This document shows positions 10,223 to 23,101 of a stretch of DNA of 27,551 nt, one piece after another; position 1 is the first letter of the stretch; every line of letters begins with the position of its first letter. A program made the translations under genes and the position numbers. Source of the DNA: a bacterium (GTDB taxonomy: Bacteria; B130-G9). The stretch lies in the NCBI GenBank assembly GCA_021160245.1, contig JAGHCW010000013.1:1-27551 (forward strand), given 5' to 3'. The notes below the pieces were generated by a model. The model was not told the DNA's origin and did no database searches. It saw nothing but the letters and a program-made list of their open reading frames with translations.

Positions 10223-10271
10223 TTGTCCCATAAGGGACAACGGTCGCTCGAATCTGTCCCAAATGGGACAG
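10223..10271. promoter_or_regulatory. Two tandem TGTCCC-N4-GGGACA dyads, likely activator sites
   Basis: TTGTCCC-ATAA-GGGACAA (10223-10240) and CTGTCCC-AAAT-GGGACAG (10254-10271) are each perfect 7-bp inverted repeats. Their centres are 31 bp apart, which is three helical turns, so both sit on the same DNA face. They lie about 81 and 112 bp before the predicted sigma-54 start, the usual place for enhancer-binding-protein sites. The cognate regulator is not in this window. Confidence 0.6.
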
Positions 10272-10316
10272 TGAATCACATCAGAAATGGGGGATGCACA
10301 AATCATTTGACGTAAC

Positions 10317-10333
10317 CGGATCGATTTCTGCAA
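10317..10333 (+). promoter_or_regulatory. Sigma-54 (-24/-12) promoter candidate for the protease gene
   Basis: CGGATCGATTTCTGCAA has the invariant GG (10318-10319) and GC (10330-10331) at the required 10-bp gap. Eight of the twelve consensus positions of TGGCACG-N4-TTGCA agree. Transcription would start near 10343, leaving a 74-nt leader. The paired dyads upstream strengthen the call. Confidence 0.45.
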
Positions 10334-10416
10334 AGTATAGATAACGCTGAATGCCACGCCCGGCCAGTGAATTGGAAGTTGATGCATTACACATCTAACT
10401 TTGGAGGTCTCCGGAT

Positions 10417-13400
10417 ATGGTATCGCGTCTTTCTGTGGTTCCCCTATCTTCAATAGCCATTATGTTGCTTACGCTTCTTCTGCCGCAAGCTGCTGCAAGC
10501 GCGGCCGAGATAGCAATTTCGTTATCACCAAGAGCTCTTCGTGGGACGTCGCCATTGGTCGTGGATGGAGCGTTCACGTTCGATGAGCTCGAGGCGGCGC
10601 GGATTTCTCTTGATGGCGGTCCGGCTGAGCCCGTTTGCCCACAACACTGCGATGCTCGGGCAAAGTCTGGCTCTCTGCAAGAGGGCTGCCCGGACCTCTC
10701 GCTGCTTTTCAGATTCAGCGTTTCGGACTCTGTGAATCTGCTTGATGCGGCATACAAGCTCAGCAATCTGCCGGGGGTTGAGTGGGCGGAGGCCCTGCTT
10801 GACTATCCGCGCGCACAAGAACCGCCCGCATACTTCTCGAGTAATCTTCCAGAGCCTGAGCCGGTAATCGGCCTCGAATCAACCGAAGATTATATTGTTC
10901 CAAATGACCCGTATTTCCCTCTTCAGGGCTCGCTGATGCACATGCGATTCCCAGAGGCGTGGGCAATTTCGACAGGTTCGACACAGGTTGTTATCTGCTC
11001 AATCGATGGCGGCTTCACGGATGCGCACGAGGACCTCGTCGGCGCAATGTGGGATAATCCGGAGGAGGCAAACGGTCCAAGCGACAGCAATGGCTATATT
11101 GGCGACATTCACGGTTGGAACTTCCCTGCCGATACGCCCTTCGTCTATGACGATTTCCACCCGGGCGCCGGACACGGAGTCAATTGTACGTCGGTCTATG
11201 CTGCTCGGGGCAACAACGGCATCGGCATGGCTGGGATGCTGTGGGATGCGACGGTGATGGTGACGATACGGGATTGGACTGATGTCGTGCTGGATGGCGC
11301 AAAGAGCGCGGTTTATGCGGCGGACAATGGGGCAAGAATCGCCCACATGGCGGCGGGTAGCATCTATAGCAAGACTGGGAAGTCAATGATACGTTATTCA
11401 CGGTCAAGGGGGCTTCTTATATACGGCGCCGCGGGCAACGAGGGAGACTTCTCGCCTCGTTATCCAGTAGCGTATCGTGATATTGTCGCGGTGGCTGGCG
11501 TTGACAGGAATGACGTGCCGATGGGCACAAACTACGGCTATTGGACAGGCGCCTCGGCTTCCCTCGATAACGAGCAGTGTATTACTTGCAGTCCCGGCAA
11601 TGTATATGGTCACGGCGGGGGGACGTCGATCGCCAATCCATACGCGGCTGGCGTTGCGGCTTTAACGCTTTCTATCCATCAGGACTGGGACCCTGATCTG
11701 CTCGAGGCGCATATTCGGGCGACTTCCGTGCCGACGGACCCCTTTAGCGTGAATATAGCCGGCGAGATAAATAGATATGAGATTGGTCCTCGCGTTGACG
11801 CTTACAGGGCGCTCTCTACCGAGCCCAGGATTGAGTTCATGCCCAAGTTCTGGCTACTCGAGGAGCTCTCAACAAGCCTGCCGGATGATAGGCAGTTTGT
11901 GCTGACGCTTGCGCTCGAAAACACTTGGAAGGCGGCTGTCAACGTGCAGATGTCGCTGTCGTGCAATGACCCGTTCGTCTCAATTGCGGGCGATACTTGC
12001 GATTTGGGGGAAATGCGTCCGCTTCAGGTCTTGAGCGGGCCGGCGCCTTTCGTCATCTCCGTCTCGCCCGACTGTCCGGCCAATCACAGCTGCGCGCTGA
12101 CGCTTTGGGTCAACGCTGACAGTCTTGATGAGCCGCAGACCTTTGCGCTTGATGTAGTGCTCAATCGCGGCATGTCCGGGCGATGTGGATGGCCAAGTGA
12201 GCAGCTTGATCCTCATCTCTATCCACCGATGCGGGCGGATCTCAATGGCGACGGAGTCCCTGAGATTATCTGTCCAACGAGCGTGGCTTGCTACGCATAT
12301 TCAATAGATGGCGAGAAAATCGATGAGATACCAGTTGTCTATGGCTCCAACGCGCCAGCTATAGTCGATTTGGATGGAGATCTTGCGGATGAGATCATCT
12401 TCCTCGACCCATACCACCGCGTTCATGTTTTCGACGACGACCTCGGCATTATGACGCTGACGGATGAGAGGACATGGAGCGCGCTTTCCGGCCATTATCG
12501 AAGCTGCGCAGGTCACGTCTCGACGGCGAATCTGTGCGGCAACGCCGGTCGGCAGATACTCATCAAGAGCATGAATCTCGACAATCCTATGGGGACACCC
12601 GTGCTGGCGGCGCTCAACATGGATGGAAGCTTCGTCGATGGATTTCCCATTGACTACTTTGTGCAGTCAAGAAACATCGCGGCTGCCGACCTCGACGGTG
12701 ACGGCATTGATGAGGTCGCCTTCTTTGCGTCCGGCGCCTTTTACGTCATTGACAATCAAGGCGAGGTTCTCCCTGGCTGGCCTTTTGCGGTTGATGGATT
12801 TGAATTCAATCCAAAGGGGGCGGAGATCATGGTTTCCGCCGGAGACCTGGATGGTAATGGCGAACAGGAGATACTTGGGACTCTGGGTGATACGCGCGTC
12901 TTCGCCTTTAAGATCGACGGCAGCCTGATGCCCGGCTGGCCGTTTGAAGGCGGCAATTCTCTGTTCGAGGCCCATCCCGTGCTCGCCGATGTAAACGGCG
13001 ACGGGGCCTGCGAGATCATTCTAGTTGAGATGGCGCCTCAGCACGACGTGCAGCTGCACAGGACCGGTGGCATCATTCATGTGATTGACAGCTCAGGTAA
13101 AGAACTGCCGGGCTGGCCGCTTGATACTGGCATTTACTACCTCCAGCCGCCAATTGCGTGCGACATAAATGGAGATGGAAAGCAGAATATCCTGATAACG
13201 AATAGTCGAGGCGTCTTTGCCTATGACGAGGCCGGGCAAGTCCTTCCCGGCTGGCCAATCATCGTAGCGCCTCGTGCGCTGGGCATTTACTCGTATTCCC
13301 AATTGACAATCGACGATTTCGACGAGGACGGGACGCTCGACATCGGTATTCCTATGGAGGGGCGGTACTTCATATTCAAACTCGATGGAGTTGACGCGGG

Positions 13401-14619
13401 TTCCGCTCAGTGGGGTTACAAGGGCGGCTCCGCGGACATGCGCTACTCCCCGGTCGGTGTCCAAAAGGCGCCGTCGATTACTATTTATCCCGAGGAGAGA
13501 AGACTATTCGCGGGCATGGACACGCTCTTGGCTGATATTCGGATAGCAAATCCAGGCGAGGAGAGAACCGTCGTCGCAAGCGCGTGGATTGAGGCGCTGG
13601 GGCAGAGGTTCTATCTGCCGACTTTCTCAGAAGAGGAGCAGAGGTTCACTATCACACTGCCGGAACATTCCGTGATCGATCTGCCGGGAATAGTCAATGT
13701 TCCGATTCCGGATGACCTGCCGGCGATGGATATAACAATCGTGGCAGAGCTTATTGATGATTCGAGCGACGAGATTCTCTCCTCGCCATCAACCTCAGCG
13801 CATATCGAGCGATATATCGGGCCGGCGGGCGGAATTGTCGTTGAGGGATTGAAGAACGCAAGCTGGCAGACATTTTCATACATGGGGTCTCCTTCCAGTT
13901 TCGAGCCAACTCCGCTCTGGGTTTTTGATGACGGCGCTACATCAAGCGTACATAGCCCTGGGCATCTCTTTGAGTCGCCCGGTGAGCACCTGCTGGGACT
14001 TATCCTGACTGACGAGCGAGGCGGCCAGTTTCTTGCTACGGCATCAACGTTCGTCATGGAACAGGCTGGCTCATGTCCGGACGACATGACAAGTATGGGC
14101 ACATTCTGCATAGACCGGTTTGAGGCTTCTCGACCTGATGCAACTGCTTACGATTTCGGCGTCGAATCCGGGCCCGCGATGTCAGTGCAAGGGGTTTTGC
14201 CCTGGCAGCCGGCCTTCGCTCCTGAGGCCAACCTAGCCTGCTCGCTCGCCGGCAAGCGACTCTGCACTCAGGATGAATGGCAAGCAGCTTGCACGGGCAG
14301 CTTCGGCCCCCTTGGATTCGAGTATCCGTACGGAAATGTGTGGGAGAGATATGCTTGCAGCGATTTCTATACTTGGATGGACAGCGTAACCATCACCGGG
14401 AAATGCAGTCGCTGTGTCTCGCGCGCCGGCGCTTATGACATGGTCGGGAATGTCCGTGAGCTCGTGACGGATTCGAGGGGAATCCCCGTCGCCGTGCTGG
14501 GCGGGTCAACATACGATGATCCCAAGTACCCGAACTGCCAGACGAGCCAGAGTCTCGAGTTGGAGCCTTGGGGCAGAGTTCTTGCTTATGGCTTCAGGTG
14601 CTGCAAGGATTCGGACTGA
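10417..14619 (+). CDS. Secreted subtilisin-family (S8) protease with FG-GAP propeller, PKD-like and FGE-like domains (1400 aa)
   Basis: This looks like an exported, catalytically competent serine protease. The signal peptide ends near ASA|AE (residues 29-30). A propeptide-like segment with LPGVEWAEA precedes the S8 domain (about 165-460). The triad is Asp197 (SIDGG), His253 (GHG) and Ser404 (GTSIANP), with oxyanion Asn341 (AAGNEG). About seven FG-GAP/VCBS repeats follow (about 607-970); they carry calcium-loop motifs such as DLDGDGIDE and recurring LPGWP, suggesting a beta-propeller. An Ig-like region and a PKD-like domain (about 1147-1214) come next. The last part (about 1219-1400) resembles the formylglycine-generating-enzyme fold (YDMVGNVREL, GFRCC), but the catalytic Cys pair is not apparent, so it is probably a binding module. 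ATG 10417 has GGAGG nine bases upstream. The substrate is unknown; the adjacent giant protein is a candidate by position only. Confidence 0.88.
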   Translation: MVSRLSVVPLSSIAIMLLTLLLPQAAASAAEIAISLSPRALRGTSPLVVDGAFTFDELEAARISLDGGPAEPVCPQHCDARAKSGSLQEGCPDLSLLFRFSVSDSVNLLDAAYKLSNLPGVEWAEALLDYPRAQEPPAYFSSNLPEPEPVIGLESTEDYIVPNDPYFPLQGSLMHMRFPEAWAISTGSTQVVICSIDGGFTDAHEDLVGAMWDNPEEANGPSDSNGYIGDIHGWNFPADTPFVYDDFHPGAGHGVNCTSVYAARGNNGIGMAGMLWDATVMVTIRDWTDVVLDGAKSAVYAADNGARIAHMAAGSIYSKTGKSMIRYSRSRGLLIYGAAGNEGDFSPRYPVAYRDIVAVAGVDRNDVPMGTNYGYWTGASASLDNEQCITCSPGNVYGHGGGTSIANPYAAGVAALTLSIHQDWDPDLLEAHIRATSVPTDPFSVNIAGEINRYEIGPRVDAYRALSTEPRIEFMPKFWLLEELSTSLPDDRQFVLTLALENTWKAAVNVQMSLSCNDPFVSIAGDTCDLGEMRPLQVLSGPAPFVISVSPDCPANHSCALTLWVNADSLDEPQTFALDVVLNRGMSGRCGWPSEQLDPHLYPPMRADLNGDGVPEIICPTSVACYAYSIDGEKIDEIPVVYGSNAPAIVDLDGDLADEIIFLDPYHRVHVFDDDLGIMTLTDERTWSALSGHYRSCAGHVSTANLCGNAGRQILIKSMNLDNPMGTPVLAALNMDGSFVDGFPIDYFVQSRNIAAADLDGDGIDEVAFFASGAFYVIDNQGEVLPGWPFAVDGFEFNPKGAEIMVSAGDLDGNGEQEILGTLGDTRVFAFKIDGSLMPGWPFEGGNSLFEAHPVLADVNGDGACEIILVEMAPQHDVQLHRTGGIIHVIDSSGKELPGWPLDTGIYYLQPPIACDINGDGKQNILITNSRGVFAYDEAGQVLPGWPIIVAPRALGIYSYSQLTIDDFDEDGTLDIGIPMEGRYFIFKLDGVDAGSAQWGYKGGSADMRYSPVGVQKAPSITIYPEERRLFAGMDTLLADIRIANPGEERTVVASAWIEALGQRFYLPTFSEEEQRFTITLPEHSVIDLPGIVNVPIPDDLPAMDITIVAELIDDSSDEILSSPSTSAHIERYIGPAGGIVVEGLKNASWQTFSYMGSPSSFEPTPLWVFDDGATSSVHSPGHLFESPGEHLLGLILTDERGGQFLATASTFVMEQAGSCPDDMTSMGTFCIDRFEASRPDATAYDFGVESGPAMSVQGVLPWQPAFAPEANLACSLAGKRLCTQDEWQAACTGSFGPLGFEYPYGNVWERYACSDFYTWMDSVTITGKCSRCVSRAGAYDMVGNVRELVTDSRGIPVAVLGGSTYDDPKYPNCQTSQSLELEPWGRVLAYGFRCCKDSD

Positions 14620-21807: not shown

Positions 21808-22893
21808 TCACTCAATGAAGCTGAGCCACCGCGTCAACAAATTCTTAAGATCGGTCAGACCGACACTATGGCTGGCAGCCGATATAGCGCTTTCGATCGC
21901 GGGAGCGATGAACGCCGAATACTCGGAGTTCCTGTTCTCTGCGGCCTGATAGGAATAAGTCCCGGCGGCTTTGAGACACCTTTGAACGACTGAAGCGTCA
22001 ATAGACCTGCTTACGCCTAATTGACGCAGCTTGGCGCGGAATGCAGGCGACACAAGGCCCATGTAGTGGTCGATGAGCTCTTGCCTCATCTCCTGCCTCA
22101 ATGTGACATAGGGATCGAATAAAAGGGATACTATGTCATAGGTGATTGGCCCGAGGCGAGCATCCTGAAAGTCGATGATACAAAGCCGGTCGTTTTTGAT
22201 CATTAAGTTGCGGGAATGATAGTCGCGATGGGTGAATACCATTGGCTGCCTCATCATCTCCCGGCAGATAATTGGGAACGATGTGGCGAAAATCTCTCTT
22301 TCATCAGGCCTCGGCTCTCGCTTGAATGCAAGTCTTGTGAAGTTCTCAACGAAGAAGTCCAGCTCCCACAGGAATCGCTTTTCAGTGAATGAGTAGCTGT
22401 GGGCGAGGCAGCTCCTAAACGATTCTGCGGTCGGGAACTGCATACTAATGAGACTGCTAATGGCCTTTCTATACGTATCGACGAGAACGCGGTCGGACAT
22501 CTCCGGCGCAAGCTCACAGAATCGTGCATCTCCCAGGTCCTCGATCAGCAGAAAGCCAAGATCGTAAATGGCGATATAGTTCTTCGGAATGGGCACAGCA
22601 CACGATTCGAGATAGCCGGCAATATCCAAGATTGCTCGGGCGTATCTCGCCGCGCCTCCCGGGGGCAGCAGCATGGCGACAATTGCGCTCTCACACTCAT
22701 CGGGCAAGGCGAGAATCCCTGAATGGACGGCATCTATTTCAAGGCACGCATTGACGAAGTCCCGAGCATTGCCCGGCTCAGCAAATCGCAACCTGAAGTA
22801 GCGCCTCGTTGATACATCGCCCTTTAGCTTGGAGACGTCTATGTTGGGTGAGCGAGAGAGAAGCGTTTCGAGGAAATCTGGGTACTCGCTCAT
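21808..22893 (-). CDS. APH-fold sugar kinase, AmgK-like (N-acetylmuramate/N-acetylglucosamine kinase type)
   Basis: This 361-aa cytoplasmic kinase-like protein belongs to the aminoglycoside/choline phosphotransferase superfamily. The N-lobe has STRRYFRL, characteristic of the AmgK group, and LLIEDLGD at the hinge. The catalytic loop THRDYHSRNLM gives Asp224 and Asn229, and IIDFQDAR gives the metal ligand Asp241, followed by GPITYDIVSLL. AmgK phosphorylates MurNAc or GlcNAc at the anomeric carbon in cell-wall recycling. Its usual partner MurU, a nucleotidyltransferase, is not next to it here, so the substrate stays open. A gene for HU lies upstream on the same strand across a 208-bp gap. Confidence 0.7.
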   Translation of the reverse strand: MSEYPDFLETLLSRSPNIDVSKLKGDVSTRRYFRLRFAEPGNARDFVNACLEIDAVHSGILALPDECESAIVAMLLPPGGAARYARAILDIAGYLESCAVPIPKNYIAIYDLGFLLIEDLGDARFCELAPEMSDRVLVDTYRKAISSLISMQFPTAESFRSCLAHSYSFTEKRFLWELDFFVENFTRLAFKREPRPDEREIFATSFPIICREMMRQPMVFTHRDYHSRNLMIKNDRLCIIDFQDARLGPITYDIVSLLFDPYVTLRQEMRQELIDHYMGLVSPAFRAKLRQLGVSRSIDASVVQRCLKAAGTYSYQAAENRNSEYSAFIAPAIESAISAASHSVGLTDLKNLLTRWLSFIE

Positions 22894-23101
22894 CGGTTAG
22901 TCGAACCTGCAACCTGCATATAATGAAGCAGACGATTGACTGCGGGCATCGTTAGCTGGCCGGAGTTTGCAGCTGCTGTGCCATTTGCTGCTGCAACGTC
23001 TGTTGAGCAAATGCAAACCTGGCGACGCCTGGAGTATGTGTCCAAAACGCCGCCAAGCTCTTCTACTACGTGCAATGAATAGAATACAGAAATTCTTTCG
23101 A

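Follow-up and report, generated by a model that had tools for sequence, protein, structure and literature searches.

Paired TGTCCC-N4-GGGACA dyads as candidate sigma-54 enhancer sites for a regulon of mostly secreted proteins in a genome very probably of Candidatus Coatesbacteria

Two perfect TGTCCC-N4-GGGACA dyads, 31 bp apart, stand ahead of a subtilase gene in the window (the whole stretch of DNA analysed, 27,551 nucleotides), and the question raised by this locus is what binds them and which promoter they serve. The genome is very probably that of a member of Candidatus Coatesbacteria. The first-pass annotation had read the dyads as paired sites for a sigma-54 enhancer-binding protein driving the secreted protease, and had proposed that the motif could define a whole regulon of secreted proteins. 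Both dyads are present as described (Table 1), differ from each other only in their central bases and lie inside the 346-bp intergenic gap between a secreted-type gene of 3107 aa (end 10070) and the subtilase gene (start 10417). Matches to the motif with up to two mismatches number seven in the window, against 0.99 in shuffles. The reading preferred here, with a probability of about 0.78, is that the dyads would constitute a double UAS for a dimeric NtrC-family enhancer-binding protein, most likely the orphan response regulator of contig C53, acting at sigma-54 promoters.

Table 1. Coordinates of the features discussed; plain numbers are window positions and L numbers are loci.
Feature	Location	Strand	Basis and remarks
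Distal dyad TGTCCCATAAGGGACA	10224-10239	.	Sequence; perfect; partner at 10255, 31 bp away
Proximal dyad TGTCCCAAATGGGACA	10255-10270	.	Sequence; perfect; same letters as the reported TspR UAS (Acidithiobacillus caldus)
Candidate -24/-12 element CGGATCGATTTCTGCA	10317-10332	+	GG 10318-10319, GC 10330-10331; weak match, scoring at chance level
Transcription start predicted by the first-pass annotation from CGGATCGATTTCTGCA	10343	+	Arithmetic alone
Ribosome-binding site GGAGGT	10403-10408	+	Sequence
Downstream gene, presumed target	10417-14619	+	1400-aa protein; signal peptide, subtilase (S8) domain, FG-GAP repeats, FGE-sulfatase domain
Sigma-54-like site TGGCACAGCAGCTGCA	22968-22983	-	75 bp before gene 21808-22893 (-)
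Five dyad pairs of the window genome	C21, C45, C52, C76 (window), C115		C52: one partner with one mismatch
Predicted target, window genome	Window		Subtilase gene
Predicted target, window genome	L007		Secreted protein, N-terminal domain repeated
Predicted target, window genome	L008		Small secreted protein, then two TPR proteins; site orthologous to L053 (G001)
Predicted target, window genome	L009		90-aa protein MYFRVVVECGHIGAGKS...; site kept in L051, L054 and L061 (alignment A1)
Predicted target, window genome	L006		Short transcript, possible ORF of about 90 aa
Small protein gene	L009:935-1207	-	
Small protein gene	L051:7326-7601	+	
Small protein gene	L054:7862-8137	+	
Small protein gene	L061:4708-4842	+	
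Apparently non-coding stretch	L051:9500-9716	-	About 190 nt; contains GTTCGCCCCGATGA
Apparently non-coding stretch	L060:1490-1703	-	As above
Apparently non-coding stretch	L055:2300-2500	+	As above

Dyad pairs in the genome and its relatives

The occurrence of the motif was evaluated in the 3.43-Mb assembly that holds the window (G000) and in three relatives (G001, G002 and G003; C numbers denote contigs). Nine perfect dyads were found in the assembly against about 0.2 expected, and all nine fall into five pairs, so that a chance origin can be set aside. The two dyads of a pair are 32 bp apart in four cases and 31 bp apart in the window. Perfect pairs were present in three of the 193 genomes of the relatives search, all three in one family, that of the window genome, and when one or two mismatches were allowed, 32-bp pairs were found in all three relatives. 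Of the 15 family sites, 14 keep the 32-bp spacing, and sequence conservation is restricted to the dyads and does not extend to the intervening and flanking bases. As a measure of rarity, 395 Desulfobacterota genomes yielded one perfect pair, which was already known. Among the matches listed in a scan of public genomes, many pairs occurred at 27–28, 33, 37–38 and about 50 bp without sigma-54 promoters, and tandem TGTCCC dyads alone are therefore not diagnostic.

A separate observation concerns many contigs of JAISLW01 and WRGA01 (L109 and others; a Planctomycetaceae and an Azobacteroides MAG), which among the matches listed carry TGTCCC dyads in tandem with a period of about 50 bp, probably a different repeat element.

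Sigma-54 promoters and predicted targets

The rpoN gene, for which the first-pass annotation had proposed a check, is present in the genome (PF00309 match, E 3e-16, contig C176), and the scan for dyad pairs ahead of sigma-54 promoters that it had also proposed revealed a TGGCAC-N5-TGC promoter 96–170 bp downstream at 13 of the 15 family pairs. The distance from dyad to -24 box was 169 or 170 bp at seven family sites, non-orthologous genes included. The single dyads of L056 and L059 (G002) are likewise situated upstream of strong promoters. The pairs without a clear promoter are those of the window and of L052 (G001); a candidate for the latter, obtained with a first promoter score, failed on the PWM. 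Because the PWM was built from the same 13 regulon promoters, the exact consensus TGGCAC-N6-TGCW was counted as an independent check; 26 copies were found in the genome, and three of the five pairs have a copy within 200 bp, against 0.008 expected (P about 7e-8). Since paired sites, promoters, rpoN and mostly secreted targets coincide, the earlier idea of a sigma-54 regulon holds at the level of the regulon, which is real as judged from sequence.

The predicted targets, whose signal peptides were assessed by eye, are mostly secreted, as had been suggested, with the addition of a small conserved protein and an RNA. The small protein and its site were found in four of four genomes, the sole target common to all, and the protein begins M(Y/F)F(K/R)VVVECGH(V/I)GAGKS...; searches of Pfam, NCBIfam and Foldseek returned nothing significant for it, the best Foldseek matches being mostly ribosomal proteins, and its AlphaFold model (pLDDT 69) displayed a beta-beta-alpha-beta-alpha order. 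The operon of secreted and TPR proteins, with its site, is common to G000 and G001, and G002 has two more secreted proteins, with sites, that are homologues of the L007 protein. In G001, G002 and G003, one site each precedes a conserved, apparently non-coding stretch with a strong terminal hairpin (with poly-T in L055) and no Rfam match, which has the look of a Coatesbacteria small RNA under sigma-54 control. No sox genes were recognised among the ORFs read by eye at the five target loci of G000, and no PEP-CTERM match was listed for the subtilase in a scan covering part of the targets.

At the window itself the promoter is less clear. The first-pass annotation had placed the dyads at about -81 and -112 relative to a start predicted from a GG-N10-GC element, and this element, CGGATCGATTTCTGCA, is literally present, fits the arithmetic and is the best PWM match between the dyads and the start codon. 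Its score was nevertheless -0.3, against 16.7–28.8 for the 13 regulon promoters (10.9–27.6 for the other promoters on leave-one-out scoring), and chance would supply 0.6 matches of that quality over the 127 positions from dyad to start codon. For this reason the start near 10343 was treated as unproven, and it is from position that we infer the driving of the protease by the window pair through CGGATCGATTTCTGCA. The distance from dyad to putative -24 element is 46 bp, compared with 96–170 bp at the 13 family sites with a clear promoter, and with its 31-bp dyad spacing the window is an atypical member of an otherwise well-supported predicted regulon. The pair would activate the subtilase gene, for which there is at best a weak candidate promoter.

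These features give some weight to an alternative that is compatible with the regulon explanation, namely that the two dyads of the window survive as a relic or act as an enhancer from afar, bound by the regulator but without a working sigma-54 promoter at 10317, the protease being transcribed otherwise or weakly. The chance-level score and the two unusual distances are what this alternative would lead one to expect, whereas both dyads are intact in the intergenic region, which argues for selection on them, and CGGATCGATTTCTGCA has the invariant GG and GC, correctly spaced, with CTGC at its -12 core much as in other regulon promoters; a scan of the window plus strand for sigma-70-like promoters, moreover, found none that could serve instead. 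The alternative is put somewhat below even odds.

Elsewhere in the window, the best sigma-54-like site is TGGCACAGCAGCTGCA on the minus strand (Table 1), with no dyads close by.

The candidate regulator

Eight NtrC-family proteins were found in the genome, on C53, C63, C177, C86, C210, C200, C165 and C2. The C53 protein (452 aa, encoded at C53:1613-2971 on the minus strand) presents complete receiver, AAA+ and Fis-type HTH domains, a GSYTGA loop (a variant of GAFTGA) and the recognition helix RKQLRTKM. In each of the four genomes its gene is an orphan that adjoins a pyrF-like gene and no kinase. The G002 orthologue reads RRQLRTRM, and the dyads of G002 are also the least perfect. No dyad was found at the gene of the C53 regulator in Coatesbacteria, so its assignment rests on HTH similarity and on a cross-phylum association. 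By sequence comparison, the C53 protein fits as the orphan NtrC-type activator that the first-pass annotation had envisaged, and it is most likely the activator for the dyads. Two others, on C86 (L028) and C200 (L030), and their orthologues are unusually long reading frames (1823 and 1203 aa) combining TPR-like repeats and a GAF-like region with a sigma-54 activator domain.

Among the matches listed in the public-genome scan, out-group pairs with sigma-54 promoters were found in Desulfobulbaceae (L129), Nitrospiraceae (L214) and Nitrospirae (L151), three genomes first chosen for having both pair and promoter. In L129, a perfect pair lies between divergent sigma-54 promoters, one of which faces an operon of a histidine kinase and an RKQLRTKM regulator (C-terminal end NQSKAAALLGISRKQLRTKMKNYDL). 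The best Coatesbacteria match of this regulator, over its full length and for the HTH alone, was the C53 orthologue group (NQTTTAQFLKMTRKQLRTKMKHYEL), with 47–49% identity, and a tblastn search of plasmids with it returned only generic AtoC/ZraR-type relatives. The other two out-group genomes with the pair (G194 and G195) also encode an RKQLRTKM regulator; this helix is uncommon in the two phyla (6 of 395 Desulfobacterota and 26 of 198 Nitrospirota genomes). An independent test set comprised 25 Nitrospirota loci (388 kb) picked solely for RKQLRTKM, with G194 excluded. It yielded six perfect dyads, whereas the 119 permuted half-sites averaged 0.03 (maximum 2). All six had the 4-bp gap, and gaps of 0–3 or 5–10 gave none; with up to one mismatch, the count was 15 against 1.45 (maximum 9). 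The loci are phylogenetically related and their effective number is lower, a dependence that the permuted and gap controls share. Strong TGGCA-N6-TTGC elements lie about 50–120 bp from many of these dyads, and control loci of regulators with other helices contained no near-dyads in 92 kb and one in 112 kb. As far as these sequence comparisons extend, the RKQLRTKM-type HTH is associated with the TGTCCC-N4-GGGACA dyad across phyla.

The out-group RKQLRTKM loci have genes for TauE/SafE permeases and molybdopterin oxidoreductases nearby, which would be compatible with a role in sulfur metabolism. In four loci (L265, L267, L270 and L271), the RKQLRTKM regulator has recurring neighbours: a Phosphonate-bd-type periplasmic protein, a kinase, a molybdopterin oxidoreductase, a 4Fe-4S protein and a TauE/SafE permease that carries an additional N-terminal domain. 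Outside Coatesbacteria, this neighbourhood resembles a system for sensing sulfur compounds. The possibility that the regulator is the same as D. vulgaris DVU0110/DVUA0057, which bind the promoter of a TSUP permease, was considered and set aside, their motif being given only in a figure.

An enhancer for another NtrC-family activator of the same genome would suit the presence of seven further such proteins, most with orthologues in the relatives, and the lack of dyads adjoining any NtrC-family gene of G000, C53 included. This is improbable, however, as only the C53 group shares RKQLRTKM with regulators whose loci are dyad-enriched, and the loci around other types of regulator show no such enrichment. 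Less likely still is the binding of a repressor or other non-sigma-54 regulator: short perfect palindromes are typical of repressor operators too, but the paired sites lie 96–170 bp upstream of the promoters with no overlap, and these are of sigma-54 type at 13 of 15 pairs. The sequence is, besides, that of the TspR activator site (PMC6335251). A dispersed repeat (REP/BIME-like), RNA hairpin or terminator is hardly credible, for although inverted repeats do recur intergenically and, among the matches listed, tandem dyads at other spacings occur in several unrelated genomes, the window and four loci gave no Rfam match, the window plus strand gave no terminator, and the few copies are conserved in the dyads only and nearly always promoter-linked.

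NtrC-family activators form dimers that oligomerise on phosphorylation and reach the sigma-54 polymerase through looping. For the double UAS and C53 regulator preferred here, we infer a similar course, in which two C53 dimers would occupy the dyads on a single face of the DNA, some three helical turns from each other, and would oligomerise once the receiver is phosphorylated, and looping would bring the oligomer to the sigma-54 RNA polymerase at the -24/-12 promoter, where the polymerase would be remodelled. For a phylum that lacks cultured members and on whose functions next to nothing has been published, this provides a concrete regulon, an operator and a candidate regulator. Connecting a recognition helix of eight residues with one DNA site in several phyla would make regulon prediction possible wherever RKQLRTKM occurs.

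Comparison with known systems

The NtrC enhancer at glnAp2 and the NifA UAS are arranged in a similar way, as two palindromes that each bind a dimer and are separated by about three turns ahead of a -24/-12 promoter, and the NifA site TGT-N10-ACA formally matches the outer bases of TGTCCC-N4-GGGACA. Unlike these, the dyads described here have fixed inner CCC/GGG, and the C53 regulator scores under the equivalog cut-offs for both NtrC (456 against 558.6 bits) and NifA (386.8 against 528.9 bits).

The closest match for the site is found in Acidithiobacillus caldus, where phosphorylated TspR, the sigma-54-dependent response regulator of the TspS/TspR two-component system, is reported to bind the UAS TGTCCCAAATGGGACA and so activate the sox-II cluster (review, PMC6335251). 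This UAS is letter for letter the proximal dyad of the window, and both systems combine a sigma-54 promoter with an activator of receiver, AAA+ and HTH_8 domains. The site type is, by this identity, that of the TspR UAS, and the regulator is a possible member of the TspR family. The targets of TspR are thiosulfate oxidation genes linked to the system, whereas those predicted here are mostly secreted proteins, the sites are paired at 31–32 bp and no kinase gene adjoins that of the candidate regulator. Since the proximal dyad equals the TspR site, a known type of sigma-54 enhancer appears to serve an exported-protein regulon and not sulfur genes. The RKQLRTKM regulators of Nitrospirota and Desulfobacterota share with C53 the dyad, the sigma-54 promoters and about 47–50% identity over the full length, but they have sulfur-type genes around them, together with a partner kinase and, in some cases, a periplasmic protein of the Phosphonate-bd type, and not secreted surface proteins. 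It is conceivable, at not quite even odds, that a TspR-type activator, sulfur-linked in other phyla, lost its linked kinase in Candidatus Coatesbacteria and was rewired to exported proteins, a small conserved protein and a small RNA, with a nearly rigid geometry (32 bp between dyads; 169–170 bp to the promoter at 7 of 15 sites). If true, a sigma-54 activator kept its DNA site while its targets moved from sulfur metabolism to the cell surface.

The PrsR/PrsK PEP-CTERM regulon likewise combines an NtrC-family regulator and sigma-54 promoters with exported-protein genes (PMC1569441; DVUA0057 in D. vulgaris, PMC3333781), and resembles the present case in having one regulator, many unlinked targets and long upstream regions. 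It differs in that the C53 regulator reaches 402.8 bits against the TIGR02915 cut-off of 502.6, and that the text on the search for PrsR sites names TTTACA and not TGTCCC (PMC1569441). The regulon is a variant with precedents, TspR for its site and PrsR for the control of exported-protein genes (PMC1569441).
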